Below, in pieces: positions 14,167 to 35,168 of a DNA stretch of 64,000 nucleotides (position 1 is its first letter; every line of letters begins with the position of its first letter). The stretch lies in the NCBI RefSeq assembly GCF_017875325.1, contig NZ_JAGGMN010000001.1:1694140-1758139 (forward strand), given 5' to 3'. This stretch comes from Methanofollis sp. W23 (GTDB taxonomy: Archaea > Halobacteriota > Methanomicrobia > Methanomicrobiales > Methanofollaceae). The translations under genes and the position numbers were made by a program. Under the pieces are notes generated by a model that saw nothing but the letters and a program-made list of their open reading frames with translations, was not told the DNA's origin and made no database searches.

Positions 14167-14214
14167 CCTCCCAATCCCATGCCCCTCCTGCGGTCTGTCC
14201 CGCAAGAGAACGTG

Positions 14215-14757
14215 ATGAGTGGACAAAAGGAGGAGGGACCGGTCGGAGGAGACCCCTCGACAAACGACCGTCAGGGGAGCGGGTCGTCAGAGTGGTGCGT
14301 GCGGGTCATCGCCTCGTCCAGCAGGGTGCTCTTCACCCTGGCGGTGGTCGGGTCAGCCCTGACCGCCGTCACCCTCTTTCTCTCCGGCTTTTTTCTCTCT
14401 CTCATCACGATCATCGAGATGTTCGTCGCCTGGAGGGCCGGTGCCGAGGTGCTGGTCGAGATCCTCTCCACCTCCGTCAAGGTCATCGACACCTTCCTGG
14501 TGGCCACGGTCTTCTACATCATCTCTCTTGGGCTGTACGAACTTTTCATCGCGAGAGCGCCTCTTCCTGGGTGGGCGGAGATCCGCACCCTCGACGACCT
14601 CAAGACCAAACTCCTGGGCGTCGTCGTCATCGCCCTGGCCGTCCTCTTCCTCGGCGAGGCCGTGACCTGGCGGGGGGAGGCCTCAATCCTCCATTTCGGT
14701 CTGGGCATCGGCGTCACGATCATCGCAATATCGGTCTATCTCTGGGTAAAACGGTGA
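14215..14757 (+). CDS. YqhA family (UPF0114) membrane protein
   Basis: 180 aa from ATG 14215 (MSGQKEEG). GTG 14212 or ATG 14179 are alternative in-frame starts. About four hydrophobic helices: around residues 30-55, 70-95, 125-145 and 155-175. A LYELFIA segment follows the second helix, and an IRTLDDLKTKLLGVVV stretch matches the UPF0114 family. The function of this widespread family is not established. The gene follows the tRNA with its own TATA-like element. Confidence 0.8.
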   Translation: MSGQKEEGPVGGDPSTNDRQGSGSSEWCVRVIASSSRVLFTLAVVGSALTAVTLFLSGFFLSLITIIEMFVAWRAGAEVLVEILSTSVKVIDTFLVATVFYIISLGLYELFIARAPLPGWAEIRTLDDLKTKLLGVVVIALAVLFLGEAVTWRGEASILHFGLGIGVTIIAISVYLWVKR

Positions 14758-14868
14758 CTGCTCCCCCGCCTGAAGTGGGAAGCACTCTGCCGGTTTTCTT
14801 CGTAGAACCAATGGTTTCCGATAGATGTTGCTTTTTTCCCGCGGCCCGAGCCCCTGTCCGAGCAAAGG

Positions 14869-14876
14869 TATATATC
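14869..14876 (+). promoter_or_regulatory. TATA box for the DUF61 gene
   Basis: GTATATAT centred about 28 nt before ATG 14901, so the mRNA is probably leaderless. Confidence 0.6.
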
Positions 14877-14900
14877 TCCACACTCCTATCCGCGGATCAG

Positions 14901-15332
14901 ATGTCGTACCGCCCCAACCTTGGCGAGGAGTCGGTCCTCAAAAAATGGATCTCCCTGGAGGTCGGCAGGATCAAAGACGGGCTGGTGGCCGAAAAAAAGT
15001 CCCTTGCCCGCCTGCTCACAGAGTCGTCCCCCTCAGCGGTGACAAAAGGAGGGAAAGAACATGCCTTCGACCGGGAGGCGGTCCAGATGCTCGGCGAACG
15101 TCTGCCCGAGAAGTTCCATTTCCGCCTCATGCTCCCGGTCACCTTCTACTCCACCCTCGACATCACCGACAGTTATTATCTCAGGGACGAGACGGCGTTC
15201 AGGGCGCTGCAGGCACTCGGCGAACTGAGCGAAATGCGCGAGATGCGGGAAGGAAAGCTCTGGGTCTCGAACGCGATCGTGTATGCGATCATGCGGAAGT
15301 ACCCCAGCCTCGTCGAGATCGGGATGGGATGA
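14901..15332 (+). CDS. DUF61 family protein (UPF0216)
   Basis: 143 aa from ATG 14901. The block LPEKFHFRLMLPVTFYSTLDITDSYYL with downstream WVSNAIVYAIMRKYPSLVEIG is characteristic of the archaea-restricted UPF0216/DUF61 family, whose function is unknown. A TATA box 28 nt upstream and absence of a ribosome site suggest leaderless translation. The same frame is open far upstream (to 14154), but that part overlaps the YqhA gene and is not coding. Confidence 0.85.
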   Translation: MSYRPNLGEESVLKKWISLEVGRIKDGLVAEKKSLARLLTESSPSAVTKGGKEHAFDREAVQMLGERLPEKFHFRLMLPVTFYSTLDITDSYYLRDETAFRALQALGELSEMREMREGKLWVSNAIVYAIMRKYPSLVEIGMG

Positions 15333-15864
15333 GGGCGCACTTCTCCGGGTCGAAAGCCCGGGTGCGATCAGGAAGTGCGGACGCCCCCTCAAGGGGGGGG
15401 GAATACCGTTCAGCCGTCCCCCACCCAGCATGAATAGCCCGAGAAGAACACCAGGTCTTCGAAGAACTCCTCGGTACCGCCAGCGGTGAAACATCCCCTG
15501 AACAAAAAACGGCCCTGAAGAGACGGGGAGGAGCACCCCCTGTCATGGCCGCCGTTCCACCTTCCCGGCCCACTCATCCTCCTCCAAGACGCAGGCGAAG
15601 GGGCATCTGGGAGGATTCTATAGCGTCCATTTTTACTCTCCTCCCACAAGACCATACACCCCCCATGGAGAGGGCACCCTCCTGCCGGAGAAACAAGCAG
15701 TGTAATTCCCATGGATCCCCCGCATCCTCCCTGGGAGATCCCCTCTCAGGTACCGCCCGGCAAACAGGACCAGATATTCTGACCATGATATTCACGGGAC
15801 GATGGGGTTGCGGGGCCTGAGGAAATTATATATATTCCTATTATAATTTGTGGCGTGATGTCTT
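15333..15864. other. Intergenic region without recognised gene
   Basis: Nothing coding is supported. A C-rich/G-rich tract lies at 15380-15430. The 3' end is AT-rich and holds the promoter of the channel gene. No full MITE-like element is seen. Confidence 0.5.
15824..15837 (+). promoter_or_regulatory. TATA-rich promoter of the MscS-like gene
   Basis: AATTATATATATTCC in an AT-rich patch, about 30 nt before ATG 15865. Confidence 0.5.
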
Positions 15865-16533
15865 ATGGCTGATATCATGTCCCAGGTCTCTGAGATGGTC
15901 GGCGGAGTGGTGATCTTCCTGCCGAACATCATCGCCGCCATCATCATCCTGCTCATCGGGTGGATCATCGGGCGGGTGCTTGGCAAGGCGATCTCGGTCT
16001 TCCTCGACAAGATCGGGGTGGACGACGCCCTCAGGAAAACAGAACCCGGCACTGCGATCGAGAAGAGCGGGTTATCGATCGTGCATCTCTTCGACGTCAT
16101 CGTGAGAATCTTTGTCTACCTCATCGCCATCACGGCGGCGACCAACGTCCTTCAGATCGAGTCGCTCTCGCGGATGATGGCCGCCATCGTCGCCTACATC
16201 CCCAACATCGTGGCCTTCGTCCTGATCCTGGTCGTCGGGATCCTGCTCATCGACTTCTTCGCAGACTGGATGGAACGCTATGGAACACACATGGAGATCG
16301 CGCTGATCGGCCCGATGATCCTCCTGGTGAGGCTCTTCCTGTACTTTGTCGTGATCATCCTCGCGCTGACCCAGCTCGCCTTCGACCTCACGATCATCTA
16401 TCTCTTCATCGGGCCGCTGGCATGGGGTGTGGGGCTCGGGATCGGTGCCGCCATTGCGATCATCGTCGGCTTCGGTCTCAAAGACCGGGCACCAGAGATC
16501 ATGGACCGGCTTTTCTGCCAGGTCAAAAAATAA
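15865..16533 (+). CDS. Mechanosensitive channel-like TM-helix repeat protein
   Basis: 222 aa, nearly all hydrophobic. Two similar units (about residues 8-115 and 120-215) each contain long membrane helices with Gly/Ala-rich faces, e.g. IIILLIGWIIGRVLGKAISVFLDKIGVDDAL, the conserved TM-helix module found in CmpX/MscS relatives. The MscS beta-domain that follows in true channels is absent, so this is the short TM-repeat form. A role in membrane tension or osmotic response is inferred from family only. Monocistronic; a T7 run follows the stop. Confidence 0.75.
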   Translation: MADIMSQVSEMVGGVVIFLPNIIAAIIILLIGWIIGRVLGKAISVFLDKIGVDDALRKTEPGTAIEKSGLSIVHLFDVIVRIFVYLIAITAATNVLQIESLSRMMAAIVAYIPNIVAFVLILVVGILLIDFFADWMERYGTHMEIALIGPMILLVRLFLYFVVIILALTQLAFDLTIIYLFIGPLAWGVGLGIGAAIAIIVGFGLKDRAPEIMDRLFCQVKK

Positions 16534-16535
16534 TC

Positions 16536-16542
16536 TTTTTTT
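16536..16542 (+). terminator. Oligo-T terminator, possibly bidirectional
   Basis: Seven T's directly after the channel gene stop, followed by AAAA, between two convergent genes. Confidence 0.5.
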
Positions 16543-16549
16543 AAAAGAG

Positions 16550-16735
16550 TCACTCGCTTACTTCGATGATCTCGGCATTCGGGGCATTGTTTCTCACGCT
16601 GTCAATCCCCTTCATGCAGGACTCCCGTGACTTGTAGCCCTGGCTGGTGGCGATGACCTGGCCGTTCGAGGCCTTCAGTCTGAACCTGTATTCGCCTCCT
16701 TTATCCCGGTACACCTCAAATTTCCCTTTAGGCAT
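16550..16735 (-). CDS. YegP-family protein (DUF1508)
   Basis: 61 aa from ATG 16735, with AGGTGG six bases upstream. The single DUF1508 unit is complete: KFEVYRDKGGEYRFRLKASNGQVIATSQGYKSR followed by CMKGIDSVRNN. The family is widespread, usually as one or two tandem units, and its function is not settled. The frame is open upstream to 17026, but those residues are antisense to the methyltransferase. Divergent from that gene with a TATA element of its own. Confidence 0.85.
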   Translation of the reverse strand: MPKGKFEVYRDKGGEYRFRLKASNGQVIATSQGYKSRESCMKGIDSVRNNAPNAEIIEVSE

Positions 16736-16766
16736 AGTTCCACCTGGGCTATGGATGCGCCTACCC

Positions 16767-16776
16767 CATATATATC
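16767..16776 (-). promoter_or_regulatory. TATA box for the DUF1508 gene
   Basis: Read on the minus strand, AGATATATATGG about 35 nt upstream of the start codon. Confidence 0.5.
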
Positions 16777-16871
16777 TTTTTATAAACTTCGGCCGATAGC
16801 ATGTCTGAGCACCCGGTCCTGGCGGGAGTATTTCGGCACTCCTATTACCAGATGGGGACAAGATGTGATCG

Positions 16872-17849
16872 ATGCATCTCACCTGTCCGGCATGCGGTTT
16901 CTCCTGGGAATACACCGGGAAGGCAAAATATTCCACCACCTGTCCGACGTGCATGCGGCGCGTCACCTTCGGGAGGAGAAAGTCCGAGACCAGCGAGTTC
17001 GGGGTCTCGAAACGGGAATGCCACAACTCAAGCGCCTTCTATGGTCGGCGGATCTATGCGGCCGCCGGAGAGGGGAGCCGGGGGGAGGAGGGAGAGAACA
17101 GGGTGCCTGAAGAGTGCCTTGATAAGGTACTCTGCCAGGACAGCAGGGACCTCTCGGTCCTGCCTGACGGCAGCGTCCACCTGATGGTCACCTCGCCGCC
17201 GTACAATGTCGGCAAGACCTATGACGACGACCTCGACCTCGAAGAATATCTTTCCCTCCTGCGCACGGTCTTTGCCGAGGTCCACCGGGTGCTCGTGCCG
17301 GGCGGGCGGGCCTGCGTGAATGTGGCGAATGTGGGGAGAAAGCCCTACATCCCGTACCACAGTTATATCATCTCGCTCATGCACGACCTGGGGTTCCTGA
17401 TGCGCGGCGAGGTGATCTGGAACAAGGCGACCGGAGCCGGGATCTCGACGGCCTGGGGGAGCTGGTGTTCGGCCTCGAACCCGACGCTGCGCGATGTCCA
17501 TGAGTACATCCTGGTCTTCTCGAAGGGGACGTATTCGCGCAAGAAGGGCGAGCACGAGAACACGATCACGAGGGACCAGTTCCTGGAGTGGACCAAGAGC
17601 ATCTGGACCTTCCCGACGGTCTCGGCAAAGAAGGTGGGCCACCCGGCACCCTTCCCGGTCGAACTGCCGTTCCGCTGCATCCAGCTCTATACCTTCAAGG
17701 GGGACGTCGTCCTCGATCCGTTTGCCGGGGCCGGGAGCACGGCACTCGCGGCGGTGCAGGCGGGACGGCACTTCGTCTGCGTGGACTCGGACGAGGGGTA
17801 TGTGGGACGCGCCAAGGAGCGGTTGCGGGCCGAGGGATGGGAGGGGTGA
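16872..17849 (+). CDS. DNA methyltransferase (N4-cytosine/N6-adenine, beta class) with N-terminal zinc knuckle
   Basis: 325 aa. A zinc-binding element C5-x2-C8...C24-x2-C27 starts the protein. The catalytic TSPPYN motif (107-112) precedes the SAM-binding motif DPFAGAGST (about 281-289), the beta-class order, with VLVPGGRACVNVANV and a long target region between. TSPPY is common in N4-cytosine enzymes, but N6-adenine activity cannot be excluded. No restriction partner is adjacent; a GNAT remnant follows. It is probably an orphan methylase. The start at ATG 16872 keeps the zinc element, which looks genuine. Confidence 0.85.
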   Translation: MHLTCPACGFSWEYTGKAKYSTTCPTCMRRVTFGRRKSETSEFGVSKRECHNSSAFYGRRIYAAAGEGSRGEEGENRVPEECLDKVLCQDSRDLSVLPDGSVHLMVTSPPYNVGKTYDDDLDLEEYLSLLRTVFAEVHRVLVPGGRACVNVANVGRKPYIPYHSYIISLMHDLGFLMRGEVIWNKATGAGISTAWGSWCSASNPTLRDVHEYILVFSKGTYSRKKGEHENTITRDQFLEWTKSIWTFPTVSAKKVGHPAPFPVELPFRCIQLYTFKGDVVLDPFAGAGSTALAAVQAGRHFVCVDSDEGYVGRAKERLRAEGWEG

Positions 17850-17867
17850 CGATCTCTTTTTGCTGAC

Positions 17868-18132
17868 GGCGTGCCGCTTTTTTTCTTCTGGGTGAAGGAT
17901 GATCCCGAGAGCGTGGGCTGGAATCTCTGGTACATGATCTCCGCGGAGGGGTGCTCGTCGGTTCGTGCGGGTTTGTCGGGCGGCCACCCTGGTGGGGTTG
18001 GGGTGGGCGTTTGAGTGTCCCGAGGTGGTGCGGGTGACGGCGCAGGCGGAAGTGGGAAATCGTGCTTCGATGCGGGTGCTGGAGAAGGTTGGGTTTGTGT
18101 GTGATGGAGGGGGGACGAGGAGGAGTGTGTGA
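17868..18132 (+). pseudogene. GNAT acetyltransferase remnant, frameshifted and internally deleted
   Basis: Three reading frames each give a piece of one GNAT protein in the right order. The first is WVKDDPESVGWNLWYMISAEG (about 17889-17950). The second is VLVGSCGFVGRP in another frame. The third is WAFECPEVVRVTAQAEVGN...SMRVLEKVGFV, ending in TGA 18130-18132. The acetyl-CoA loop (R/Q-x-x-G-x-G/A region) between the second and third pieces is mostly missing. So at least one frameshift and one deletion have inactivated it. It lies directly at the left edge of the AT-rich island, which suggests damage associated with island insertion or nearby recombination. Confidence 0.75.
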
Positions 18133-18311
18133 GGTTTGGGATGGGACGGATGGAGACTTCCTCGAATCCTACACGCATCTGATGGGATCAGGGACGGCAA
18201 CGACCCCTTCATGATCACTTTTCTTTTCGTGTGTTCTTTTCGGGCAATTGACAATACATTTGACATAATTGAATCAAAATATTATTGCCTGACATTGTCA
18301 CACCATATCAT

Positions 18312-19103
18312 ATGACGAAGCCCTCAGAATTTCTTGATCTTCTTAAGATCTATTCTCGTAAGGATTTGAAAAAAAAGTTTGACATTTTTGACACTCGAAT
18401 AGATACTGGGGTATTCCCGTGGGGAGATCAGTCATCAGTCTGGCTATTCGTAACAAAAGAAAAGACATCTGGCATGACCGGTTACTCTGACGATTTTGAT
18501 GGTCAAATCCTAAATTTTGATGGGCAGATGGCTGGAAGAACCGACATAAATATTATTCATCACGCAGAGGACGGCAATGAATTGCTAGTTTTTTTCCGAA
18601 ACAGAAAAAATGAATACCCTAATTCTGCGTTCAGATACTTGGGGCGATTTCAATATATCTCGCACAAAGGAGAAAGACCAACAAGATTTGTCCTCCAAGC
18701 ATTGGACGTTGGCACGAACGAGTGCGGCGGTTCTGTTCCGATTACTAACTACCGAAAACCTGAAGAATACATTGAAGGAATGGAGAGGAAACGGGTTCAG
18801 ACTTACTATGAACGTAATCCCCGCCTGAGGGCTGAGGCATTGAAAGTCCATGGGACAAAGTGCGCAGTCTGTGGCTTTGATTTTTCAGAAGCCTATGGCA
18901 CTATTGGAGAGGGCTACATTGAGATCCACCATAAGAACCCCGTCGCCTCTTATGAGGGGGAAGTTGCGGTCAATCCTGAAACGGATCTTGTGCCTGTATG
19001 TGCCAACTGCCACCGGATGATCCATAGGAGAAAGAAATTGCTTTCAGTAGAGGATCTTCGTAAGATCATGCAGAACCAACCCAAAGGTCACGATTATAGA
19101 TGA
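18312..19103 (+). CDS. HNH endonuclease with N-terminal DUF3427/McrA-like domain
   Basis: 263 aa from ATG 18312 (an upstream TTG at 18285 is less likely). The C-terminal HNH finger is intact: C184-x2-C187, EIHHKNPV with H206-H207, C230-x2-C233 and H238. The N-terminal ~130 residues (FPWGDQSSVWLFVT, GRTDINIIHH, FRYLGRFQYIS) resemble the modified-DNA-reading domains joined to HNH in DUF3427/ScoMcrA-type type IV restriction enzymes. A modified-base-dependent nuclease is therefore likely, but the recognised base is unknown. Base composition is AT-rich like the genes that follow, marking the start of the island. Confidence 0.8.
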   Translation: MTKPSEFLDLLKIYSRKDLKKKFDIFDTRIDTGVFPWGDQSSVWLFVTKEKTSGMTGYSDDFDGQILNFDGQMAGRTDINIIHHAEDGNELLVFFRNRKNEYPNSAFRYLGRFQYISHKGERPTRFVLQALDVGTNECGGSVPITNYRKPEEYIEGMERKRVQTYYERNPRLRAEALKVHGTKCAVCGFDFSEAYGTIGEGYIEIHHKNPVASYEGEVAVNPETDLVPVCANCHRMIHRRKKLLSVEDLRKIMQNQPKGHDYR

Positions 19104-19403
19104 CAATCTCAATAACTCAGGTGATAAGGAAGATAGTGGATTTGATCTTACCCTACTGCTCTTTAGGAGCGTCTCCAGTGAGAACATAGGGGAAATCGGT
19201 GATTCACACTCTCTTCTGGAATAGAGGAGTGGTTAATCCTATACTGTTGAAATATTATATCAGACAGCAGTTATGAACAACAAAACTGAATAAATCCACT
19301 CCAAACCACCGCACATAATGAAAACACAATTAAAATCGGATTAAACCAACTCCAAGCCAAAAAAATGATAAAAACTTTATATTTGGCAGAATAATGGCAA
19401 ATC
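19104..19403. other. AT-rich spacer before the DruE-like operon
   Basis: No ORF of note. Contains the TATA element of the operon (19377-19384) and AT-rich sequence without clear repeats. Confidence 0.5.
19377..19384 (+). promoter_or_regulatory. TATA box of the DruE-like operon
   Basis: TTTATATT about 24 nt before ATG 19404, predicting a leaderless mRNA for the whole coupled operon. Confidence 0.5.
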
Positions 19404-21560
19404 ATGCCCCTCACATATCATGATTGGAATAAACATATTACTAAATATTTTTTTAAAGAAGATAACGCAGGAAAAGATGTCATCCTTTTTGTAAATAAAG
19501 AAATTATTGACGAAATTGGGAAACCGTACGGGGGAGGTTTTGATGATTTTGTCCAGTGTTTAGTACGAGGTCCTGATTTTGTGAATAATAACCCTGAAAA
19601 TATTTGCAAAATGGCATATGAGACATATAATCGTGGTAAGCAGATGGACATGGAATATCCCTCATATATCGCTTATTTGGCTCTCTTTGTCTGTGCTGCC
19701 ACAATAGACGGGGACTATGATAGAAACGCATACTACCCAAAACTCAAGGATCTCGTTGGTGACGATCAAGATATCAATATGTCCGCTTTGTTTAGCGATT
19801 ATATCAGTGATCTCTGGAAAGGTTTACAAAGATGGAGTCAAGTCAAAACAGGGGAGGCCTATGGTCGTTTTACAATAACGAGGAGAGGTGGCCACGTAAA
19901 TGTCGGCATCATCTATGCACAGACTATTCTCTCAGAAAACGAGAGAAAAAATCTTCCAACTATATTCTCAAGAGCAGGGCTAGACCCTACAGATCCTCCA
20001 ACAGAAGATATCCTCAAATCGAAACTTAGACGTTATGGCGAGGAATTTTTTGAAAATCGAACAAAAAAATTATTGAACTCAAATTGGAACCAAGAAAATA
20101 CGTTGCTGGGTGCACTGATAGATCTCGTGCTTTCAGAACTTGAAAGATGGGACGGCACAGTGCCTGAGAGTGGACAGGCTTTAGAAGAAGGACAGGACAC
20201 GCTGGCAGCAGTAACTCAGAGGGGACACCGTTGGGTGAACGTGTATGCAAGAGTCTGCTTATCAAGAGTACTCGGTGGTTTCTCTTCCCATATCAGATTT
20301 AAAGTAAACCCAGACAACGTGGTGTTCCCAGAAGATGGGCTTGAGTTCAAGGTCAGTGAGAACCCTTACCTTACTGAAAAACGGTTATTGGATGAGGTTT
20401 TCTCAAGCCATCAAACAAACAAGGCTGGATGGTCAAGACCTTTACAGACCTCAAAAGACGGGCGAGTAGAGATCCTAAAGGCTGAATTATTTGACTGGTC
20501 AGAAGGAGCAACTTTTGTAGACGGGGAGATGGACTGGAAGGTTGTACTCCGGCCCGCAGATGTACGTGTGTTCCTACCTGGCGGACGAGACAATCTCCCA
20601 GACACATACGTTGAGGCACAGCACTTAGAACATGCTTGTCCATTCCTTATAGCGTGCCGTGACTCGTTTAAAGAAAGGATTACCTGTTGGGGAGAGAGTG
20701 AGACCGAAAAATTTGAACAGGTTTCTTCCTCGGGGATTCCGGAGGGTTGGTCACTATTCCAGGGAGAGAACGCTAAGACAGACTGTAGGGGATTCGATCC
20801 CCTAACTCTTCCCAAAGAGATCAGACTCAAGTTGGTCGGGGGGGTACGCCACTCGGCAGGCAGTAATAAATTCCTGCACTTTGCACCGCCCACTATTGTT
20901 GTAGAGGGTAGCAGTGGCAATGTTACCGTAATGATCAACGGCGAAGAGATCCCCCAGAAACTAGTTGAAGGTATGCAGTGGGATATCCCCTCAGGTTACA
21001 ATATAGGCGAATCGCTCACCATTGATGTCCTTTCAGACAGTAAAAAGGCATGCAATAGCAGGACGATACAATTTGTAGGCTCAGAACTGATTGAAGATTT
21101 TAGTAACGTACCACTGTTGGACTCTAAAGGTAGACTCTTGAGGTACGGTGAAGGAGGGCAGCCCCTTAGATTTGCACAGGGGGTAGTTGTATATGGCGTT
21201 GATGTGTCCGAATTTGGAAACGTGCCTCTGGGTGCACCGACCTACTTGTCCAACTCTATCACTTTTCTCGGCCCCGAACCAGGGATGGTCGCGTGTTGGC
21301 CAAATGACCCCTTGCCCACGGAGTGGAGCCCAGTCTGGGCACTCGCAAAAACTGGAAGGAACAGCAGAGACGTCCACTACTGTGGGTTACCAGAAGATGA
21401 TAATAGCAGACCAAGGGACACTCGAACAAAGACTGGTCATAAAACCCTTAAGTTATGGAAAGAATCAGTCTGGGTGAACAGAAAGAGAAATAACCCCCCT
21501 AAGATCCCAAAATTGCGAAAAAAATGGTCAAAATATATGGAAGTGGCAAAGCATGTCTGA
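19404..21560 (+). CDS. Unknown protein, first gene of the DruE-like defence operon
   Basis: 718 aa and not recognised as any named family. The N-terminal half (1-300) is mainly helical and opens with YHDWNKHITKYFF and VILFVNKEIIDEIG-like segments. Residues 310-480 are mixed. Residues about 489-560 (PPTIVVEGSSGNVTVMINGEEIP) look like a beta-sandwich, Ig-like module. The last 60 residues are basic (KTGHKTLKLWKESVWVNRKRNN), suggesting nucleic-acid contact. It overlaps the next gene by eight bases, so it belongs to the same operon. By position it may play the part of DruF/DruG or DruH in Druantia systems, but no homology can be shown here. Confidence 0.7.
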   Translation: MPLTYHDWNKHITKYFFKEDNAGKDVILFVNKEIIDEIGKPYGGGFDDFVQCLVRGPDFVNNNPENICKMAYETYNRGKQMDMEYPSYIAYLALFVCAATIDGDYDRNAYYPKLKDLVGDDQDINMSALFSDYISDLWKGLQRWSQVKTGEAYGRFTITRRGGHVNVGIIYAQTILSENERKNLPTIFSRAGLDPTDPPTEDILKSKLRRYGEEFFENRTKKLLNSNWNQENTLLGALIDLVLSELERWDGTVPESGQALEEGQDTLAAVTQRGHRWVNVYARVCLSRVLGGFSSHIRFKVNPDNVVFPEDGLEFKVSENPYLTEKRLLDEVFSSHQTNKAGWSRPLQTSKDGRVEILKAELFDWSEGATFVDGEMDWKVVLRPADVRVFLPGGRDNLPDTYVEAQHLEHACPFLIACRDSFKERITCWGESETEKFEQVSSSGIPEGWSLFQGENAKTDCRGFDPLTLPKEIRLKLVGGVRHSAGSNKFLHFAPPTIVVEGSSGNVTVMINGEEIPQKLVEGMQWDIPSGYNIGESLTIDVLSDSKKACNSRTIQFVGSELIEDFSNVPLLDSKGRLLRYGEGGQPLRFAQGVVVYGVDVSEFGNVPLGAPTYLSNSITFLGPEPGMVACWPNDPLPTEWSPVWALAKTGRNSRDVHYCGLPEDDNSRPRDTRTKTGHKTLKLWKESVWVNRKRNNPPKIPKLRKKWSKYMEVAKHV

Positions 21561-22602
21561 ACTTCTATTAGCCGCCCTCGGTACCTACGGGGAGATGTCT
21601 ATTAAAAAGTTCGACGAAGTTTTTACAGAACTCTGTCTCAACGAAAACGCTGTAAAAAATGAATTGAACATTAAGAACCTCCGCAGAAAAGCAGTCAGGT
21701 TGCTTGACGCCATGGGGTATTGTGAGTTTGACTTTGAGGTCAACAAGGTGTACCCCTGTCCTCCTACACTGGTCACTTTGCCAGGAGGGGGGGTACACAA
21801 GGCTGTACTCACAGGGGTACGTGACCCAAAGATGTTGGACAAGGTTAAATCCTTCATCAAAAACCACTCAGACACATTAAACCTGACCGAAAAGTCACAA
21901 AATATCATCGAATCTTACAGAGACAGAGGACAAGTGACAGCCGCCACTTTCCCGTCTGCAATACTCATAGATGGACTTGAAAAAGACCTCATGACAGACC
22001 TAGCTCGTGAATGCGGGCTGCATGCATTTCTTGACGTCCCGACGGCGTGGCCACTCTTATGTTTTTGCGCTGGGCTCCCAGAATACATGGCGGATCTGTC
22101 ATGGAACCGTTGCAGGGAGGACGAATTAAATTGGGCGAGAAGTGAGTTCTCTCCGACAAAACTCGCGTTCAAGAAAAAGAACTCAGAAGAAAAGACAGGC
22201 GGCCTTGTTGAGTATATCAATCCGATAACCTACCAGAGGAGCCACTGGTTCTGGAAAAACGATGTTGCAGCAGTTGTAGACAGGGACTGGGGAAGGTACA
22301 TCGCTCTCTCGTTTTCAGGGCGGCGGGTGATTGTATATGATGAAAAACAACAAATCTTGGTCGTCCCGGCTTCTCTGCCCCTTCCCCGACTCCTATCGCG
22401 CGCTGCGACACTCTGCTCTGGGACAATTCCTCTTACCGCTTCTACGGGGGACAGTGCCATAGAAGACATACCCCCACACTTTCCAGTCTCTGTATACAGA
22501 GGAATTCCCCCCGAGTACTCGTCCCAAATTGTGTCAAAACTCGGCCAGAGAGAAATTAAGAAAAAACTCCGTTTAGACAATCAAGGTTTGGTGACTCTAT
22601 GA
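21553..22602 (+). CDS. Unknown winged-helix-like protein of the DruE-like operon
   Basis: 349 aa. Residues 1-65 look like a winged helix (LLAALGTYGEMSIKKFDEVF, then LRRKAVRLLDAMGYCEFDF). A segment PPTLVTLPGGGVHKAVLTGVRDP (69-92) follows, and a second copy of a similar theme near 275-290 (LPLPRLLSRAATL). No catalytic motif is seen. Overlaps of 8 bp upstream and 4 bp with the giant helicase downstream imply tightly coupled translation and probably a stoichiometric partner. An adaptor or DNA-binding subunit is the simplest guess; the function is unknown. Confidence 0.7.
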   Translation: MSELLLAALGTYGEMSIKKFDEVFTELCLNENAVKNELNIKNLRRKAVRLLDAMGYCEFDFEVNKVYPCPPTLVTLPGGGVHKAVLTGVRDPKMLDKVKSFIKNHSDTLNLTEKSQNIIESYRDRGQVTAATFPSAILIDGLEKDLMTDLARECGLHAFLDVPTAWPLLCFCAGLPEYMADLSWNRCREDELNWARSEFSPTKLAFKKKNSEEKTGGLVEYINPITYQRSHWFWKNDVAAVVDRDWGRYIALSFSGRRVIVYDEKQQILVVPASLPLPRLLSRAATLCSGTIPLTASTGDSAIEDIPPHFPVSVYRGIPPEYSSQIVSKLGQREIKKKLRLDNQGLVTL

Positions 22603-25600
22603 TCGACCCAATCAATTCATTTGATGAAGTAAAAGAAGATGTGATTAAATATATTGGTACCGCGTTTGGGACTCGTTTTGAGTCGATAAACCAAGAAAGA
22701 GACGAAATTCTCCATGACCCAACAGTGTTGTGCCAAGACCCGTGGGTCGAGCCTCTCCCCGTATACAAGAGTTCTGGAAAGATGGTCCGAGCCACAGATG
22801 GGGACAGGACCATAGAACTCTCTCCAGAAGACCTTGGTAACGCGCTCACGGCGAGACAACTCGAAGAGTTCAAAGAGCTTGTCTCCTGTGGACTCTTCAA
22901 AGATGGACTCACCCTCTACACCCACCAATTAGAGATGCTGCAGGAGGCGTTAAAGGGGAGCCGCCACTGTGTGATCACAGCAGGTACGGGCTCAGGTAAA
23001 ACAGAGGCCTTTTTACTCCCTCTCTTTGCAGAACTCATCAAGGAGTCCTCCACTGCAGAGACATGGAAAACACCGGCTAAACCACTCGACCATCAGGACG
23101 ACTGGTGGAAGGAAAATGATGACATCAAAGGGTGGAGAGATGACCTGCTCCGCAACGACAAGATTTGTTGGGTATCCCAAAGGGCAAATGAGAGTCCTGC
23201 CCCTACCACCGGTCGGCCTGCAGCGGTGCGGGCCATGCTCATCTACCCCATGAATGCACTTGTCGAAGACCAGTTATCAAGGCTCAGGAGAGCTTTAGAC
23301 TCAGATACCGCACGAGAATGGTTCAGGAAGCGCCGGGATGGAAACCATTTCTACTTTGGCAGGTACACTGGTATCACTCCTGTCCCTGGACACCAGTACA
23401 ACGAACCCGGAGAAACAGGGGGGATCAATGAAAAAAAAGTCAATTCCCTCGTAGAAGAACTTCAGAAGATCGATTCGACATCTAGGCAGGTGCGGGAGTA
23501 CACGCAGGGTGGCACCCCTGGCACACCTGATGAGAAAAAGAGGCGAGAAGCACAGTACTTCTTCCAGCACTTAGATGGTGGTGAGATGCGTTGCCGTTGG
23601 GACATGCAGGACATGCCCCCAGACGTACTGATCACGAACTTTTCTATGCTCAGCATTATGATGATGCGAGAGGAAGAGGACAATATATTCGAGGCCACGC
23701 GGGAGTGGCTCCAAGAAGACCCAAGCCATGTGTTCCATCTCATCATCGATGAGATACACCTCTACCGGGGCACAGCAGGTACCGAGGTTGCGTACCTCCT
23801 GCGGCTCCTCCTCCTGCGCCTTGGGCTCACCCCTGACAGTCCCCAACTCAGGATACTCGGTTCAAGTGCGTCCCTAGGAGGCGAAGAAGAAGGACTGGAA
23901 TTCCTGCATAAGTTCTTTGGGGCAAAAAAAGAGCGTTTCACAATTATTAATGGAGTAGAAGAGGTTGTAGATGAGTTTGGCCCTGAGGATAGCAGACACT
24001 TGGGAGAAGAGTTTGTCGAAGCTTTTTGCACCATATCTCAGGGGGCAGACTGTGCTGGGTCCGTCGAAACAATACCTGAAGTAGTATGGGCGGACGCTGC
24101 TGCGTACATCGCAGAGGCAACTGGTTCAAACATCGGGATGGACGAATGTGACAAGAGGGTCACCCTCCTCGCTCAACTCGAAGCACCAGGTCTCAATTTA
24201 TCGTCTCAAGTACGCACTGCGTGCTCTGAAATTGAGAATAGTGAGAAGAGGACACGGGCCGTTTCCCTTGAGGACTTTGGGACAGAGATCTTCGGGTCAG
24301 AGATCGAGTCTGAAAAAGCAAGGAACGCCGTCCGTGGTCTCTTCATCGTGCGAGGTTTGTGCACAGAGTTAAGGGACGAGAGGATCTCAGGAAGAGATAC
24401 CGCTGAGTATGTCCAGGGGAAATATGGTGCATCATCCCCACTCCCGTCCTTCAGGTTTCACTGGCTCTTCAGGAACTTGGACGGGCTTTGGGCTGCTACA
24501 CGCCCAGAAGAGGAGTCACCCGACGGGAGGCCTGTGGGACAACTCTTCACCCAGCCGCACTTGACCTCACGGGGAGAAGAACCCAGCAGGGTGCTTGAGT
24601 TACTGTACTGCGAGAACTGCGGCACAGTCTACCTCGGAGGGAATAGGCTCGTCACTGAGGATGACCTCGTCGAGATGCTGCCAGTTGAACCAGACATCGA
24701 AGCACTCCCAGACAAAGGTGCTGTACAGATCGTTGAAAAGAGAAAGTATGTCGATTACGCGGTATTCTGGCCGAATGGACCTCACCAGTCCATAAATGAC
24801 GATGCTGGTAATGGACCATGGCCTCTAAAGAGGGACTATAAGGATGAATCTAAAGGAGACAGCAAAAATGACCCCAAATACGATGGACGGTGGTCGGAGG
24901 CGATACTTGACACAAGGTCAGGGAAAGTAGAAAGTGGCCATGAGATCCCGTCAGGGGAAGAGGACGTTTGGGTGACTGGATACCTCTTTCAAGTGTACAA
25001 AAAAGGTGAGCGAGACCCTGTTAGAATCAGGGGGAGACCAAAGAACTTAGCCGCTGTATCTGCTCTCCCTACCCGTTGTGCCGCATGTGGTGCTGACTAT
25101 CAGTACAGCAAAAAAAAGGTCTCGCCTGTAAGGGGTTTCAGGACTGGTTACGCCAAGATGACGCAACTGCTCACCGATGAACTCTTTTTCCAACTCCCAG
25201 ACGATCTCAAAAAGGTTGTAACGTTCTCTGACAGTCGGGAAGAAGCTGCGAGGACGGCAATCGGTGTCGAAAGAAACCACTACCTCCAGTTACTCAGGGA
25301 AGCCTTTACCGAAGAACTTCGGACAAGGACAAACGGAAAGGCACAAGTTCTCGAAGACCTGGAAGCCCATTATGAAGAGGTCAGTGCTACGGACAGCGTC
25401 AACCCGGCATTTCTCTGTCCTGCCTCAAAAAAATACCTTGAATGGGATATAAATTTTCTTAATAAAGTACGTGATGACCTCATCACCGTCAGAGAGTACG
25501 ACCCTGAAGAAGGCTCATCGCATGCCAAGCGCCAGAAGAATCGTAAGGACTACACTGAAGCATTAGAGAGGTTGCAGACCATCCGTAAAGATGGTGCTTC

Positions 25601-28600
25601 ACGAGAGGTCCATTTCCATGAACTCGTCCACCCTCCTGATGGCAGTGGAGCTTTAGATCCCCTCGACCCCGGCAGCCTTGTGCGCCGTCTCGTTAGACTT
25701 GGAATAAACCCTGCAGGGCCAGACAAAAGCGCTCAAAAGTACAAAGATAACCAAGATGACCATTCCAAAGATGTCCCTTGGAAGGAAGTGTATGATTTTA
25801 AGACTGGGTTGTGGACTCGCCTCTCAGTCGAGAAGGTTTTTGCGAGGTACACCGCACAGAAAAAAGTTCGTGAAGAAGTCTGCAAGTTCCTCTTCAGTAA
25901 GATCTACTTTGGGTTTGAATCCTCGGGTCTCGGGATCATCAAAGCAAACCTCAAAGACGAAGATGTAGAAGAAGCAGCGAAAAGGCTAGATATAAGCAAC
26001 ATCACATTCCGTGAGACCTGCGATGCGGCCCTCCGTGTCCTTGGAGACTGTTACAGGCACGAAGGTTCTGATTTCAAAAAAGATGACTGGGATGGTTATC
26101 GGAATAGCGGAAAGTGGAACGGGAGGTTTAGGAAGTGGGTCGAAGCAGTAGCTAAAAGCAATGGGCAGGTAGGAAAACGTAAGATAGACGATTTCGGTGA
26201 AGAAGTCCTGAAGGCCCTTAGAGAATCTGGGCACCATAGAGGGATAATCTCCACAAGTAGCCTGACCTTTAAAGTTGCCTCCGTCTTAGATCCTGTATGG
26301 GACTGTCCAAACTGTGAGCGTCCCCACCTCCACAGGTCAGGTGGCATCTGTACAAACTGTGGAGCCCCTCTCCCAGAAGAGCCTACCAGATTGTGTGAAG
26401 AGATCTGGGATAAGAACTATTACTCCTCTTTGACACGTACAGGGAGACCTCTCTTACGCCTCCACTGCGAGGAACTGACCGGACAGACCGATGATCAGCC
26501 TAGACGACAGAGACAGTTCCGCAACATATTCATCAGTGATGGAAATGGTACAGGCCCACGCGAAGTCCCAGAAGTTGACGAGATCGACATGCTGAGCGTC
26601 ACCACGACAATGGAAGTCGGCATCGATATTGGAGACTTGCAGGCAGTGATGCTGGCGAACATGCCTCCAGAACGGTTCAATTATCAGCAGAGGGCAGGTC
26701 GTGCAGGTCGTCGTGGTCAGGCGTTTTCTACAGTCCTCACCCTCTGTAGAGGAGGCCGGAGCCACGACGACTATCATTACCGATACCCCGAGCACATTAC
26801 AGGTGACCGTCCACCGGCACCCTTCCTCACCATGGGAGATGACCAGGAACAGATACGCAAGAGGGCTCTTGCAAAGGAGTGCCTCAGGAAGGCGTTCAAG
26901 GATGCTGGAGTCACATGGGCGGATGGCCCAAGCGGGAGAGACTCTCATGGTGAGTTTGGAAAAGCAGATAAATGGAACGGAAGTGAAGTGCAGTTAAAGG
27001 TTAAGGACTGGCTAAAGAATTACCCTTACAGGGAGGAAGTCATATCCTCCTTGACTGGAATCACTGAGAAAAACGAAGAGAAGAAGAGAGAACTCCTAGA
27101 CTACCTCAGTGATGATCTGCCACGGGATATCGATAATATCGTACAAGACGATGAGTTGCCTGGCGAAGGACTCGCCGAACGCCTTGCTGAAGCAGCAGTC
27201 CTCCCAATGTATGGCATGCCTTCGCGGGTGAGATCCCTCATTCACCACTTGCCCAAGGGCTCAAAGAGCCCATGGACTATCGAGCGAGACATAGAGATGG
27301 CCATAACAGAGTTCGCTCCAGGAGCTCAAAAGACCAAAGATAAAGCAGTACACACATCAATTGGTTTTTCTTCCCCTCTATGGGCTGCTGGAAATAAACA
27401 TTGGATGGCCACCTCAGGTGACGACTCAAACCCCATACCATTCGTCAGATGGGTGGCGCGGTGCAAGGCCTGTGGGAACATCTCTGTTTCTAAAGATGAC
27501 GTAGGCGCACCAAAGGCCTGCCCAGTATGCAAGAGGGCACTCGAGGAGAACATTGAGTACGCAAAAGTCGTGACGCCTGCTGGGTTCAGGACCGACTTCT
27601 CTGAAGGACGGGACTCCCTTGAGGACGAGCCCTATTTTGGTATGGTCTCTACTACGGCAGAAAAAATGGAACCAAAGGAAGAGGATGATTCTAGCAACTA
27701 TCACCTTGAGTTCTCTGACCGATCGAAGGTCTGGCGGATCAACGACAACCGTCAGGGGAACGTTCCACATTACTTCAGAGGGGCTATTGTCAAGACGTCA
27801 CAGAAGGTCGATTCATTAGACCCCCGGGTCAACCTTGAGCACCAGTGGATAGCAGAGCCATATATCAAAAAATTAGTAAATGAAAATGATAGACCTTCAC
27901 CTGAGGAGATCGAGGAACTCGCAATAGGGACCAGAAAGGTCACAAACATCATGAGCTTCGGGCCTCAGCGTGTGCCCCGAGGGCTAAACTTCGACCCCCT
28001 GTCTCCAGGTGGTGGAGTAAAGGCCGCCGTCTACTCCTCTGCGTTCTTGGTCCAAGCGGTCATCGCACAGATGCTCGATATCGACCCAGAAGAACTTGAG
28101 ATATGCCGGGTACAGCCAACGAGAACTGATAACACAACAGTCGTTGGGAGAGTTGTCCTCAGTGACAGACTACCGAACGGATCCGGGTTTGCATGTTGGA
28201 CTTTTGATAACTGGAAGAGCGTCATGGATGAAGTTCTCAACACTCCACCTGATTCGGACTCGTTTATGGGTAGACTAGTGTCCGATAGACACCGATATGG
28301 TGATGAACACACTCCTCCGTGCAGAACGGCGTGTTACCAGTGCCTCATGTCCTTTAGGAACATGTCTTACCATGGTCTGTTGGACTGGCGCCTTGGTCTT
28401 TCATATCTACGCACCCTCAACGACACCTCATACACCTGCGGCCTGACAGAGGCTGACTACAGACACCCTGAACTTCATGACTGGTACGAGACAGCAGAAC
28501 AGGAAGGACAACGTTTTTCGAGGCTCTATGGGTTTGAATATCACAACTCCAAAGAAGTTGGGCTGCCATACCTGACACATGGAGATAATGCCCTCATCGT

Positions 28601-28796
28601 CCACCAGCCCCTCTGGGACAGACACACTAGGGCAGGGATCTTCAACAAGGCGGTTTCAAAAGTGATCAGAAAAGGGTACGCACCACATGGTATAGACACG
28701 TTCAACCTGTTGCGCCGGCCGAGTTGGTGTTATTCACAATTTAACAAGGATTTACAAGGAAGAGGAGAAAATTCTGTGACACACCTGCCCCAATGA
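22599..28796 (+). CDS. Giant DEAD/DEAH helicase with DUF1998-like C-terminus (DruE-like)
   Basis: 2065 aa, an SF2 helicase. Walker A GTGSGKT is at 128-134 and the Walker B box DEIH at 384-387, followed by LYRGTAGTEVAYLL. The second RecA lobe carries MEVGIDIGDLQAV and QRAGRAGR (1364-1371). Zinc-ribbon-like Cys pairs occur near 668 (CENC), 1230-1250 (CPNC...CTNC) and 1625-1647 (CKAC...CPVC). The last ~290 residues, with CRTACYQCLMSF near 1907, resemble DUF1998. Size and architecture fit DruE, the signature protein of Druantia anti-phage systems; DISARM DrmA/DrmB is the other DUF1998 relative but splits these functions. It overlaps both neighbours by four bases. Confidence 0.88.
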   Translation: MIDPINSFDEVKEDVIKYIGTAFGTRFESINQERDEILHDPTVLCQDPWVEPLPVYKSSGKMVRATDGDRTIELSPEDLGNALTARQLEEFKELVSCGLFKDGLTLYTHQLEMLQEALKGSRHCVITAGTGSGKTEAFLLPLFAELIKESSTAETWKTPAKPLDHQDDWWKENDDIKGWRDDLLRNDKICWVSQRANESPAPTTGRPAAVRAMLIYPMNALVEDQLSRLRRALDSDTAREWFRKRRDGNHFYFGRYTGITPVPGHQYNEPGETGGINEKKVNSLVEELQKIDSTSRQVREYTQGGTPGTPDEKKRREAQYFFQHLDGGEMRCRWDMQDMPPDVLITNFSMLSIMMMREEEDNIFEATREWLQEDPSHVFHLIIDEIHLYRGTAGTEVAYLLRLLLLRLGLTPDSPQLRILGSSASLGGEEEGLEFLHKFFGAKKERFTIINGVEEVVDEFGPEDSRHLGEEFVEAFCTISQGADCAGSVETIPEVVWADAAAYIAEATGSNIGMDECDKRVTLLAQLEAPGLNLSSQVRTACSEIENSEKRTRAVSLEDFGTEIFGSEIESEKARNAVRGLFIVRGLCTELRDERISGRDTAEYVQGKYGASSPLPSFRFHWLFRNLDGLWAATRPEEESPDGRPVGQLFTQPHLTSRGEEPSRVLELLYCENCGTVYLGGNRLVTEDDLVEMLPVEPDIEALPDKGAVQIVEKRKYVDYAVFWPNGPHQSINDDAGNGPWPLKRDYKDESKGDSKNDPKYDGRWSEAILDTRSGKVESGHEIPSGEEDVWVTGYLFQVYKKGERDPVRIRGRPKNLAAVSALPTRCAACGADYQYSKKKVSPVRGFRTGYAKMTQLLTDELFFQLPDDLKKVVTFSDSREEAARTAIGVERNHYLQLLREAFTEELRTRTNGKAQVLEDLEAHYEEVSATDSVNPAFLCPASKKYLEWDINFLNKVRDDLITVREYDPEEGSSHAKRQKNRKDYTEALERLQTIRKDGASREVHFHELVHPPDGSGALDPLDPGSLVRRLVRLGINPAGPDKSAQKYKDNQDDHSKDVPWKEVYDFKTGLWTRLSVEKVFARYTAQKKVREEVCKFLFSKIYFGFESSGLGIIKANLKDEDVEEAAKRLDISNITFRETCDAALRVLGDCYRHEGSDFKKDDWDGYRNSGKWNGRFRKWVEAVAKSNGQVGKRKIDDFGEEVLKALRESGHHRGIISTSSLTFKVASVLDPVWDCPNCERPHLHRSGGICTNCGAPLPEEPTRLCEEIWDKNYYSSLTRTGRPLLRLHCEELTGQTDDQPRRQRQFRNIFISDGNGTGPREVPEVDEIDMLSVTTTMEVGIDIGDLQAVMLANMPPERFNYQQRAGRAGRRGQAFSTVLTLCRGGRSHDDYHYRYPEHITGDRPPAPFLTMGDDQEQIRKRALAKECLRKAFKDAGVTWADGPSGRDSHGEFGKADKWNGSEVQLKVKDWLKNYPYREEVISSLTGITEKNEEKKRELLDYLSDDLPRDIDNIVQDDELPGEGLAERLAEAAVLPMYGMPSRVRSLIHHLPKGSKSPWTIERDIEMAITEFAPGAQKTKDKAVHTSIGFSSPLWAAGNKHWMATSGDDSNPIPFVRWVARCKACGNISVSKDDVGAPKACPVCKRALEENIEYAKVVTPAGFRTDFSEGRDSLEDEPYFGMVSTTAEKMEPKEEDDSSNYHLEFSDRSKVWRINDNRQGNVPHYFRGAIVKTSQKVDSLDPRVNLEHQWIAEPYIKKLVNENDRPSPEEIEELAIGTRKVTNIMSFGPQRVPRGLNFDPLSPGGGVKAAVYSSAFLVQAVIAQMLDIDPEELEICRVQPTRTDNTTVVGRVVLSDRLPNGSGFACWTFDNWKSVMDEVLNTPPDSDSFMGRLVSDRHRYGDEHTPPCRTACYQCLMSFRNMSYHGLLDWRLGLSYLRTLNDTSYTCGLTEADYRHPELHDWYETAEQEGQRFSRLYGFEYHNSKEVGLPYLTHGDNALIVHQPLWDRHTRAGIFNKAVSKVIRKGYAPHGIDTFNLLRRPSWCYSQFNKDLQGRGENSVTHLPQ

Positions 28797-29926
28797 GACC
28801 GGGCGTCCTCCCTCTACCCCCACCAATCAGTCCCCTTCGACGTGTCACGCCGAGTACCTTCCAGGCCCATCGGGAGTGCCCGCTAAGGGCGGTGTGGTCC
28901 GCGGCCCGGCAAAATACTCCGCTCCCAACTTTTGCGGGTGCAGTGCTAGGGAGAGTCATCCACAGTGCCATAGAGTATGCAAGAAGAGAGCATGTGAGGT
29001 CAAGAGATGACTTTGAACAGATCTGGGGTCAGTGTATGCACAATGAGGAGAAGGTGCTGGTACAGTCTTGGACTGAGGCACATCTTGTCCCGCTCTCTCA
29101 GTCTGTACGTAATTATGAACAAAAAAAAGAATTGTGTTGGCTTGCAGTACGGGACATAAAACCCTCTTTTAGCCGAAAATGGCGGAGGTCTCCTCCTATA
29201 TGGCCACCATGTGGGGACGAACTCTGGCTAGAGACACGAGATGGAGTGTGTGTCGGCCGGGTTGACCGTATCAACAACAAAGGAGGCGTTATCGAGGTTA
29301 TTGACTATAAATCAAAAGTATTACTCCCTCATGCTGAGATGGGAGATGACCTAGGCACCTACACCCCCCAACTAAAATACTACGCTGCTCTCTACCATGC
29401 ACAGTATAGAGAGTGGCCCACGATTTTGAAAATTGTTGCAAATGGGGGACAAGAAATTGAAATACCTTTTACCCATGACGAGTGTGAGAGTCTCCTCAAG
29501 GAAGCCTACACCTTGCTCGCAAAGGTCAACTGTACCATACGGAGTGCTTCATTAGACAAGAGGAAAGCACTCTCTTCACTTGCAAAGCCATCGCCGAAGA
29601 CGTGCTCACTTTGTCTTTTCCGCCCAGTATGTGCTCCATATTGGGAAGGACGTTCCCGAGCACCAAACGAAGACTGGCCAAATGACCTCCATGGTACAAT
29701 TATTGAAACCGGTCGGTGGGGTAAGGACAGAGTTTACCTAGACATCGCCCCTTACGAAGGGGACAAGTATGTTAAGGTTAAGGTCATTGAGGTCTCCTCA
29801 GGGAGGCATCCTGCTCTCAAGAGAGAGAAAAAGGAAGTTTACCTCTTCTCTCTCCTACAATATAAGGATAGACCAGATGTTTTCGCGGAAGGTAAGTATA
29901 CAACCATCTATGTGCCCAAACACTGA
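28793..29926 (+). CDS. PD-(D/E)XK nuclease of the Cas4/RecB type with Fe-S cysteines
   Basis: 377 aa, overlapping the helicase stop (ATGA). N-terminal TPSTFQAHRECPLRAVW supplies C29, and GRVIHSAIEYA (53-63) is the helix before the core. The catalytic set is G-R-V-D158, then D171-Y-K173 in EVIDYKSK, and Q193...Y196 (motif QxxxY) in TPQLKYYAALYH. C271-x2-C274-x5-C280 completes a four-Cys Fe-S cluster. Residues 298-377 look like an added OB-type domain. All catalytic residues are present, so it should be an active exonuclease or endonuclease acting with the DruE-like helicase. I do not recall a Cas4-like nuclease as a standard Druantia member, which makes it notable. Confidence 0.88.
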   Translation: MRPGVLPLPPPISPLRRVTPSTFQAHRECPLRAVWSAARQNTPLPTFAGAVLGRVIHSAIEYARREHVRSRDDFEQIWGQCMHNEEKVLVQSWTEAHLVPLSQSVRNYEQKKELCWLAVRDIKPSFSRKWRRSPPIWPPCGDELWLETRDGVCVGRVDRINNKGGVIEVIDYKSKVLLPHAEMGDDLGTYTPQLKYYAALYHAQYREWPTILKIVANGGQEIEIPFTHDECESLLKEAYTLLAKVNCTIRSASLDKRKALSSLAKPSPKTCSLCLFRPVCAPYWEGRSRAPNEDWPNDLHGTIIETGRWGKDRVYLDIAPYEGDKYVKVKVIEVSSGRHPALKREKKEVYLFSLLQYKDRPDVFAEGKYTTIYVPKH

Positions 29927-32513: not shown

Positions 32514-32830
32514 ATGACCCTCCGCGCCTACGCCGACCTTCTACGCCTCCACTTCGCCTTCGCCTGGCCGCTCCTCTTCTGCTCCGGCCTCGTCCTCGCC
32601 TTCGGCACCTACGAAACCTTCTCCTGGCCCCTCGTCATCACCGCCGCCCTCATCGGGCTCTTCGGCTTCGAGGCCAGGATGGTGCTCAAGACTATGTGGA
32701 CCGCGAACGCGATACGCGGGACGTCGAAGGGCGACCGACCCGGCACTGACCTCTTCGGGACAAGGCCCCTTCAGAGAAGGGACGCCGGACCCGCCGGACG
32801 TTAACACGTTCGCACCTGGAATGCACCCGG
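32514..32830 (+). pseudogene. UbiA-family prenyltransferase pseudogene, frameshifted and truncated
   Basis: ATG 32514 opens a normal UbiA N-terminus (LRLHFAFAWPLLFCSGLVLAF, ALIGLFGFEARMVL). The expected NDxxD motif then continues only in another frame (DYVDRERDTRDVEG, about 32690-32735). The text returns to the first frame for GDRPGTDLFGTRP and shifts again for FREGTPDPPDVNTF and GMHP (about 32768-32830). After that no homology is visible, so the C-terminal two thirds is gone. Three frame changes and a truncation make it clearly dead. It is GC-rich like the backbone and marks the right flank of the defence island. Confidence 0.8.
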
Positions 32831-34493: not shown

Positions 34494-35168
34494 ATGATCC
34501 CCGAATCGTTCCCCTGCGAACTCGTCGCCTGGGACCATGCCGTCCGCCTCTCCCGTGCCCTCGCGGCGGAGGTGAAGGCCGCGGACTACCGCCCCGACCT
34601 CGTGATCGCCATCGGCCGCGGCGGGTACGTCCCGGCCAGGATCGTCTGCGACCGTCTCCTCCTCGACACCCTGACCAGCATCAAGATCGAGCACTGGGGG
34701 ACTGCGGCGAGAAAGAAAGAGAAAGCGGTGGTCCGCTACCCGCTCGCGACCGATGTCGGAGACCTCTCGGTGCTCATCGTCGACGACGTCACCGACACCG
34801 GCGAGACCCTCGAACATGCGGTCGCGTACGTGGAGAAAGAAGGGGCGCGGGAGGTGAGGACCGGCGTGCTCCAGCACAAGCGCACCTCTTCGTATGACCC
34901 GGACTATTATGCCGAGTACCTTGCCGGGTGGCGCTGGGTGGTCTATCCCTGGGCACTCCATGAAGACCTGGTGGGCTTCACCGAGAAGGTGCTCGCAGAC
35001 GAGGGCCTGACCATGGCGGAGATCAGGGCGGCGCTCGCCCGCCGGTACGAGATCCATGCCAACGAGGACGAGGTCGCGGAGGCCCTGGCCGACCTCCTGG
35101 CGCTCGGAAAGGCCGTAGAGGAGGAGGGGGACCGCTACCGTCAAGGGCATGAGTGGGAAGGGGGGTGA
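34494..35168 (+). CDS. Phosphoribosyltransferase with C-terminal helical domain (COG2236-like)
   Basis: 224 aa. The PRPP-binding loop VLIVDDVTDTGETL (about 96-109) and the early VIAIGRGGYVPARIV strand define a type I phosphoribosyltransferase. Residues 160-222 are helical (MAEIRAALARRYEIHANEDEVAEALADLLALG), resembling a winged-helix tail. The family is labelled as hypoxanthine or xanthine-guanine phosphoribosyltransferase-like in archaea; the actual base is not determined by these motifs. Confidence 0.85.
   Translation: MIPESFPCELVAWDHAVRLSRALAAEVKAADYRPDLVIAIGRGGYVPARIVCDRLLLDTLTSIKIEHWGTAARKKEKAVVRYPLATDVGDLSVLIVDDVTDTGETLEHAVAYVEKEGAREVRTGVLQHKRTSSYDPDYYAEYLAGWRWVVYPWALHEDLVGFTEKVLADEGLTMAEIRAALARRYEIHANEDEVAEALADLLALGKAVEEEGDRYRQGHEWEGG

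Follow-up and report, generated by a model that had tools for sequence, protein, structure and literature searches.

A Druantia type IV-like operon with the nuclease DruK as cargo of an archaeal defence hotspot

Do four overlapping genes that combine a giant helicase with an iron-sulphur nuclease represent a new kind of anti-phage system? The question is raised by positions 19404 to 29926 of the window, by which we mean the whole 64,000-nucleotide stretch of Methanofollis sp. W23 analysed here, where a preliminary description had proposed a possible new Druantia-related system. The gene layout given there agrees exactly with the ORF coordinates. The four genes share one strand and overlap by 8, 4 and 4 bp, so that druF, druL, druE and druK are translationally coupled. 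The genes had also been called AT-rich, which holds relative to the genome (45-51% GC against 61-63% in the flanks) but not in absolute terms; the stretch of about 14 kb that holds the operon ranges from 37 to 53% GC. The proposed span leaves out a linked HNH gene, a glycosylase and an m5C methyltransferase, which are included in the following list.

18285..19103, + strand: linked neighbour resembling type IV restriction enzymes, an HNH endonuclease whose N-terminal part is partially DUF3427-like; PF01844 23.1 bits, PF11907 22.0 bits (below cut-off), PADLOC mREase_IV 34.8 bits
19404..21560, + strand: druF, 718 aa; PADLOC DruF2 632.5 bits and DruF4 631.6 bits, full length
21553..22602, + strand: druL, 349 aa, predicted N-terminal winged helix; PADLOC DruL4 317.8 bits
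22599..28796, + strand: druE, 2065 aa, SF2 helicase of the YprA/MrfA family that has Zn-binding motifs and whose C-terminal part is DUF1998-like; PADLOC DruE2 1814 bits and DruE4 1721 bits
28793..29926, + strand: druK, 377 aa, RecB/AdnA/Dna2/Cas4-like PD-(D/E)XK nuclease with a 4-Cys iron-sulphur signature; PADLOC DruK 92 bits, PF12705 55.8 bits
30091..30750, + strand: linked, not Druantia-defining; HhH-GPD DNA glycosylase similar to Mig-Mth/MutY, probably a thymine glycosylase for G:T mismatches; PADLOC model 'Type II nicking endonuclease', 128 bits
30783..32165, + strand: linked, not scored as DruM; C5-cytosine DNA methyltransferase, 460 aa; PF00145 193.8 bits, PADLOC MTase_II 309 bits, DrmMII 287 bits, DruM2 258 bits

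Assignment of the operon to Druantia type IV

A profile search with PADLOC-DB (2023) returned named models for all four genes, namely DruF, DruL4, DruE and DruK. Druantia type IV was described by Payne et al. in 2021 as DruE and DruF together with a new protein, DruL, that replaces DruM and DruG, with 168 instances in 11 phyla (PMC8565338). Since DruE, DruF and DruL make up this type, the operon is a member of it, and the profile matches mark the four genes, nuclease included, as the archaeal version of a system that already has a name. The case for a new type had rested on four coupled genes with a nuclease that is not known from Druantia types I-III. However, types I-III were all that the preliminary description took into account, and the nuclease is covered by the named PADLOC model DruK. 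A new system type is therefore scarcely credible and the claim is closed; what the window adds is an archaeal example of Druantia type IV with DruK. In the literature searched, no experimental work or demonstrated activity was found for any Druantia type IV system.

The placement of the giant helicase near DruE, by contrast, was borne out. It reaches 1721-1814 bits with the best DruE models, compared with 63 for DpdJ and 34 for DrmA, and all scores to models of DISARM (Drm) and Dpd proteins stay at or below 63 bits, so that the best score belongs to Druantia.

Compared with the published type IV, the operon has the same DruE, DruF and DruL in the order F-L-E, and the core genes match over their full length. 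Type IV is defined as lacking DruM, whereas here an m5C methyltransferase, by best score not a DruM, lies 856 bp past DruK. Moreover, DruE and DruF are slightly closer to the type II models than to those of type IV (DruE2 1814 versus DruE4 1721 bits; DruF2 632.5 versus DruF4 631.6 bits). Type II shares with the window the DruE2- and DruF2-type proteins and a nearby m5C methyltransferase. However, its gene set (DruM, DruF, DruG, DruE) is incomplete here: DruG had no PADLOC match among the proteins tested, i.e., the operon and its neighbours, and the methyltransferase is not DruM-like by best score, while DruL and DruK are present. With type III (DruH-DruE) the DruE helicase core is shared, but no DruH was found among the tested neighbours in the window, and the published DruE of type III has a PLD nuclease domain of its own (PMC12458937).

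The helicase DruE

DruE carries Walker A (residue 129), DEIH (384) and motif VI (1364), so that its helicase motifs read as intact. The Pfam models DEAD and Helicase_C match above cut-off and MZB/DUF1998 below it (17.0 versus 24.2 bits), and the cysteines C1908-x3-C1912-x2-C1915 are present. The earlier characterization as a DEAD/DEAH helicase with a DUF1998-like end is consistent with these matches, the DUF1998 part being below the Pfam cut-off. The closest solved chain is PDB 9wae_A, a 1970-aa 'Helicase' (E 5e-217); with six further entries, it indicates by sequence comparison that an experimental structure exists for a close DruE relative. The DruE of Druantia III has been described as a helicase-nuclease that engages ssDNA-containing replication intermediates (PMC13192584). 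A survey of the YprA family reports that the only nuclease domain in DruE of types I and II is an inactivated one (PMC12458937); a separate nuclease, for instance DruK, would then have a place. In phage records no match to DruE was found. In viral contigs a single-protein scan found nothing; an alignment-based scan gave 27 loci.

DruF and DruL

The DruF match of 632 bits spans residues 3-718, and the DruL4 match of 317.8 bits spans residues 2-343. No Pfam or NCBIfam model matched DruF, and the sequence profiles of DruF and DruL found no solved relative. The AF2 model of DruF, built from six sequences, had a pLDDT of 40 and was unusable. For DruL the model reached a pLDDT of 74, and residues 1-76 match winged-helix domains; the N-terminus of this 349-aa protein is thus predicted to be a winged helix, in agreement with the preliminary description. 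The best structural row is Hel308 (Z 7.0, 2.3 Å, 71 aligned), a value under the level that is safe alone. In VIA-align, the first 76 or so residues reach the level of a winged helix and residues from about 70 to 157 that of a topoisomerase insert. All of these matches lie below Z 8, and hence no function was drawn for DruL from them. A whole-chain Foldseek search of DruL gave nothing below E 0.28, and hhalign detected no similarity between DruL and the DruG of type II.

DruL and DruF can be a single protein: locus L064 encodes one of 1087 aa whose N-terminus matches DruF and whose C-terminus matches DruL. Along this line, the C-terminal ends of the long DruF2 models in PADLOC match the DruL of the window (26 bits). 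Given the fusion and this match, Druantia types II and IV look continuous, with DruF either split from or fused with DruL. As iterative HMM matches have inflated E-values, the claims on fusion and gene order rest on non-iterated comparisons.

The nuclease DruK

DruK belongs to PDDEXK_1 (PF12705, 55.8 bits), with the active site G155xxD158, D171xK173 and Q193xxxY197. In eight aligned sequences the catalytic residues are conserved, D171 being E in L069, and the cysteines C29, C271, C274 and C280 are invariant. The motif and all four iron-sulphur cysteines named in the preliminary description are therefore present and conserved, and DruK is apparently an intact RecB/AdnA/Dna2/Cas4-like nuclease. 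Its profile matches AdnA, Dna2 and Cas4. With the iron-sulphur nucleases Cas4, AddB, AdnA and Dna2 it shares a RecB-type active site and the arrangement of one N-terminal and three C-terminal cysteines, but DruK has an extra C-terminal part of about 95 aa. TIGR00372 for Cas4 scores 18.2 bits against a cut-off of 65, and no cas or CRISPR gene was found among the tested neighbours. The DruK family of PADLOC-DB (2023) likewise places a PD-(D/E)XK nuclease under a named Druantia model, to which the score of the window protein is modest (92 bits).

Distribution in other genomes

The genes occur together outside this genome. DruL4 was found in 4 of 393 genomes of the phylum, three of the four within this genus, and a full-length DruE of this kind in 6 of 393; the remaining matches are more distant helicases. 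The order F-L-E recurs in the closest relative (G008, 82-87% identical), in another archaeal family (G227) and in Heimdallarchaeota (G404/L006), as well as in cyanobacterial plasmids and viral-collection contigs (L065, L066, L068). One bacterial type IV operon is carried by the Nostoc plasmid NZ_CP023282.

DruK follows DruE in the window, in G227, in Rubrobacter (L025) and in L064. In G404 its gene separates DruL from DruE and is read from the opposite strand. In G002, DruE is encoded on the opposite strand, and DruK was not found. DruK-like proteins also come after a type I-like DruE in Meiothermus (L062, with DruA next), L069 and L070; the DruE genes accompanied by DruK thus include those of bacteria and of viral contigs. 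Among 27 surveyed type II/IV loci, DruK is present in six, in one of them disrupted. Being absent from most of these loci, DruK cannot be a universal effector. Thus, DruK travels with several Druantia types, as it stands beside both type II/IV and type I-like DruE, yet it is optional, as many loci lack it.

In G008, DruK (joined L012+L013, 11470-12639, - strand) is spread over two reading frames and three ORF pieces. This gene is either decayed or affected by an assembly error; the other Druantia genes of G008 are intact.

The HNH gene (18285-19103) is kept upstream of druF in G008, and a homologue is found in the Druantia locus of Hymenobacter (L024). With its weak DUF3427-like N-terminus, the protein is possibly a modification-dependent nuclease.

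A hotspot with variable defence cargo

On one side of the operon lie an MscS-like gene and an N4/N6-methyltransferase (15865-17849), on the other a PRTase/Hsp70 pair (34494-37318); the hotspot between them is filled by the operon. In the congeners that have both flanks together (G004, G005, G008, G009), the gap measures 17-33 kb and its cargo differs: genes of the MzaB/MzaC type in G004; a GHKL protein of the REase_II type, an m5C methyltransferase and a UvrD-like helicase in G005; and Druantia IV in G008.

This setting bears on the reading that the four genes form an operon for DNA repair, comparable to MrfAB or AddAB, instead of a defence system. A YprA-family helicase next to a RecB-like nuclease, whose profile matches AdnA and Dna2, would suit such an operon. 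However, the PADLOC score is specific for DruE, the distribution is patchy (DruL4 in 4 of 393 phylum genomes), and the genes lie with foreign base composition in a variable defence hotspot. Taken together, we regard a repair operon as very unlikely, and retain the assignment to Druantia type IV.

At 32514-32783 the window contains a truncated remnant corresponding to the first 91 or so residues, at 68% identity, of a membrane protein, possibly a prenyltransferase, whose intact form in G005 has 295 aa. The remnant marks the right edge of the island.

Neighbouring methyltransferase and T:G-repair enzyme

With the operon assigned to a named type, residual interest lies in its association with a methylase and mismatch repair and in a possible DrmE-DruE pair. 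The m5C methyltransferase of the window has intact PCQ, ENV and GNAV motifs. The glycosylase aligns to 1kea, a G-T mismatch enzyme, and keeps YT and VDxN, of which the conserved Tyr and Asp are active-site residues of 1kea; MutY chains score equally, and some share YT.

We surveyed 27 DruE type II/IV loci for an m5C methyltransferase in the flanking sequence. Such a gene lies near 15 of them, and 12 have none in the flanks examined. A T:G-repair enzyme, either Vsr or a glycosylase, is present at 13 of the 15 loci with a methyltransferase and at none of the 12 without (Fisher p 6e-6; 7e-5 once relatives are collapsed). The enzyme is Vsr in bacteria and in viral contig L063, and an HhH-GPD glycosylase in archaea and Alisedimentitalea. 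The Alisedimentitalea glycosylase adjoins an MvaI-type restriction gene and is thus probably part of a separate R-M system; the glycosylase of G404 lies about 11 kb from DruE. The methyltransferases of the surveyed loci, three close pairs excepted, are mostly 16-34% identical, and to judge from this divergence they have clearly been recruited repeatedly to type II/IV loci. A methyltransferase with its own mismatch-repair partner looks like the less ordinary feature beside the operon, and the pairing recurs beside related systems. No report linking T:G-mismatch repair enzymes to Druantia loci was found in the literature searched.

Two early assignments were dropped, the first being that of the glycosylase as a Druantia-specific partner. 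In 120 genomes of the order, all ten strong homologues of the glycosylase have an m5C methyltransferase no more than about 8 kb away, mostly without Druantia; the glycosylase thus accompanies archaeal m5C methyltransferases generally, as a partner of the methylase and not of Druantia. The methyltransferase of the window was dropped as a DruM on account of its scores (MTase_II 309 over DruM2 258 bits) and its R-M lineage. The methyltransferase of G227, for its part, scores best to DruM2.

The R-M lineage is apparent from two relatives: the methyltransferase of the window is 79% identical to that of the congener G003 and 64% identical to that of G013, and each of these is followed by an EcoO109I-family restriction endonuclease (PF14511, 38.7 and 29.4 bits), which is absent from the window and from G008. 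The simplest reading of these sequences is that the glycosylase/methyltransferase pair goes back to a type II R-M system whose endonuclease was lost, and functional coupling to Druantia is consequently hypothetical. We lean slightly towards an unrelated, solitary remnant of EcoO109I type that merely adjoins Druantia in the hotspot, where congeners hold other systems. Against this, the pair is kept intact beside the operon in G008, and unrelated pairs of a methyltransferase and a T:G-repair enzyme adjoin type II/IV operons elsewhere. An R-M remnant would concern the neighbours only and is compatible with Druantia IV as the explanation of the four-gene operon.

A second account couples the neighbours to the operon in an R-M-like manner: the m5C methyltransferase would mark host DNA, the glycosylase (Vsr in bacteria) would repair T:G mismatches arising by deamination, and DruF, DruL, DruE and DruK would attack unmarked DNA. 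The counts of the survey (15 of 27; 13 of 15 versus 0 of 12) and the repeated recruitment of mostly dissimilar methyltransferases argue for it, as do the DruM2-like methyltransferase of G227 and the fact that type II requires a methyltransferase (DruM) in PADLOC (PMC8565338). However, T:G-repair enzymes go with m5C methyltransferases in general (10 of 10 in the order), the methyltransferase of the window is closer to an R-M enzyme than to DruM, 12 of 27 loci have none in the flanks examined, and unrelated systems cluster in defence islands. This coupling is conceivable but rather improbable. Its generalization, namely that type II/IV Druantia is methylation-gated, that interchangeable m5C methyltransferases, taken up on many independent occasions, supply the self mark, each with a T:G-repair enzyme (Vsr in bacteria, glycosylase in archaea), and that the effector senses the mark and not one sequence, is speculative and in our opinion unlikely. 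The testable question raised is whether type II/IV Druantia depends on the neighbouring cytosine methyltransferase.

Proposed mode of action

The most probable reading of the locus is an anti-phage operon of Druantia type IV (DruF-DruL-DruE) together with DruK as accessory nuclease, carried as cargo of an archaeal defence hotspot. The analysis establishes what the genes are, that the helicase and nuclease motifs are intact, that the genes overlap and that the set recurs; loading on foreign DNA, contacts between the proteins, DruK as effector and the outcome of infection are inferred. In the proposed scheme, DruF and DruL would recruit or gate DruE, with the winged helix of DruL contacting DNA. 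DruE, as an ATP-driven translocase of the YprA type, would load on replicating or damaged foreign DNA, and DruK, as an iron-sulphur nuclease of RecB/AdnA type, would cut the strand exposed by DruE. With its motifs intact and its gene translated together with druE, DruK is a natural candidate for the cutting step. More tentatively, self DNA may be marked by the m5C methyltransferase and the mismatch glycosylase next to the operon.

A DrmE-like protein beside DruE in related genomes

Two archaeal families have a DruE type II/IV-like helicase that lacks DruF and DruL and has, divergently oriented at a distance of about 120 bp, the gene of a protein of about 700 aa related to DrmE of DISARM.

L016:12205-14361, - strand: DrmE-like gene, beside DruE at 14479-20391 of joined L016+L017
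L055:6002-8086, + strand: DrmE-like gene, beside DruE at 11862-17888 of joined L054+L055

The two proteins match PF24957 with 31.9 and 24.3 bits and NF038316 with 53.5 and 30.5 bits, the latter below its cut-off of 80. They are 31% identical to each other (E 2e-81); a search of the 393 genomes gave no further full-length copy. The pair may represent a hybrid DrmE-DruE system that is as yet undescribed. In G062, the DruE gene with the DrmE-like neighbour is followed, immediately beyond its 3' end, by a gene for a PbeA-like protein (200 bits; L054:8562-11603).
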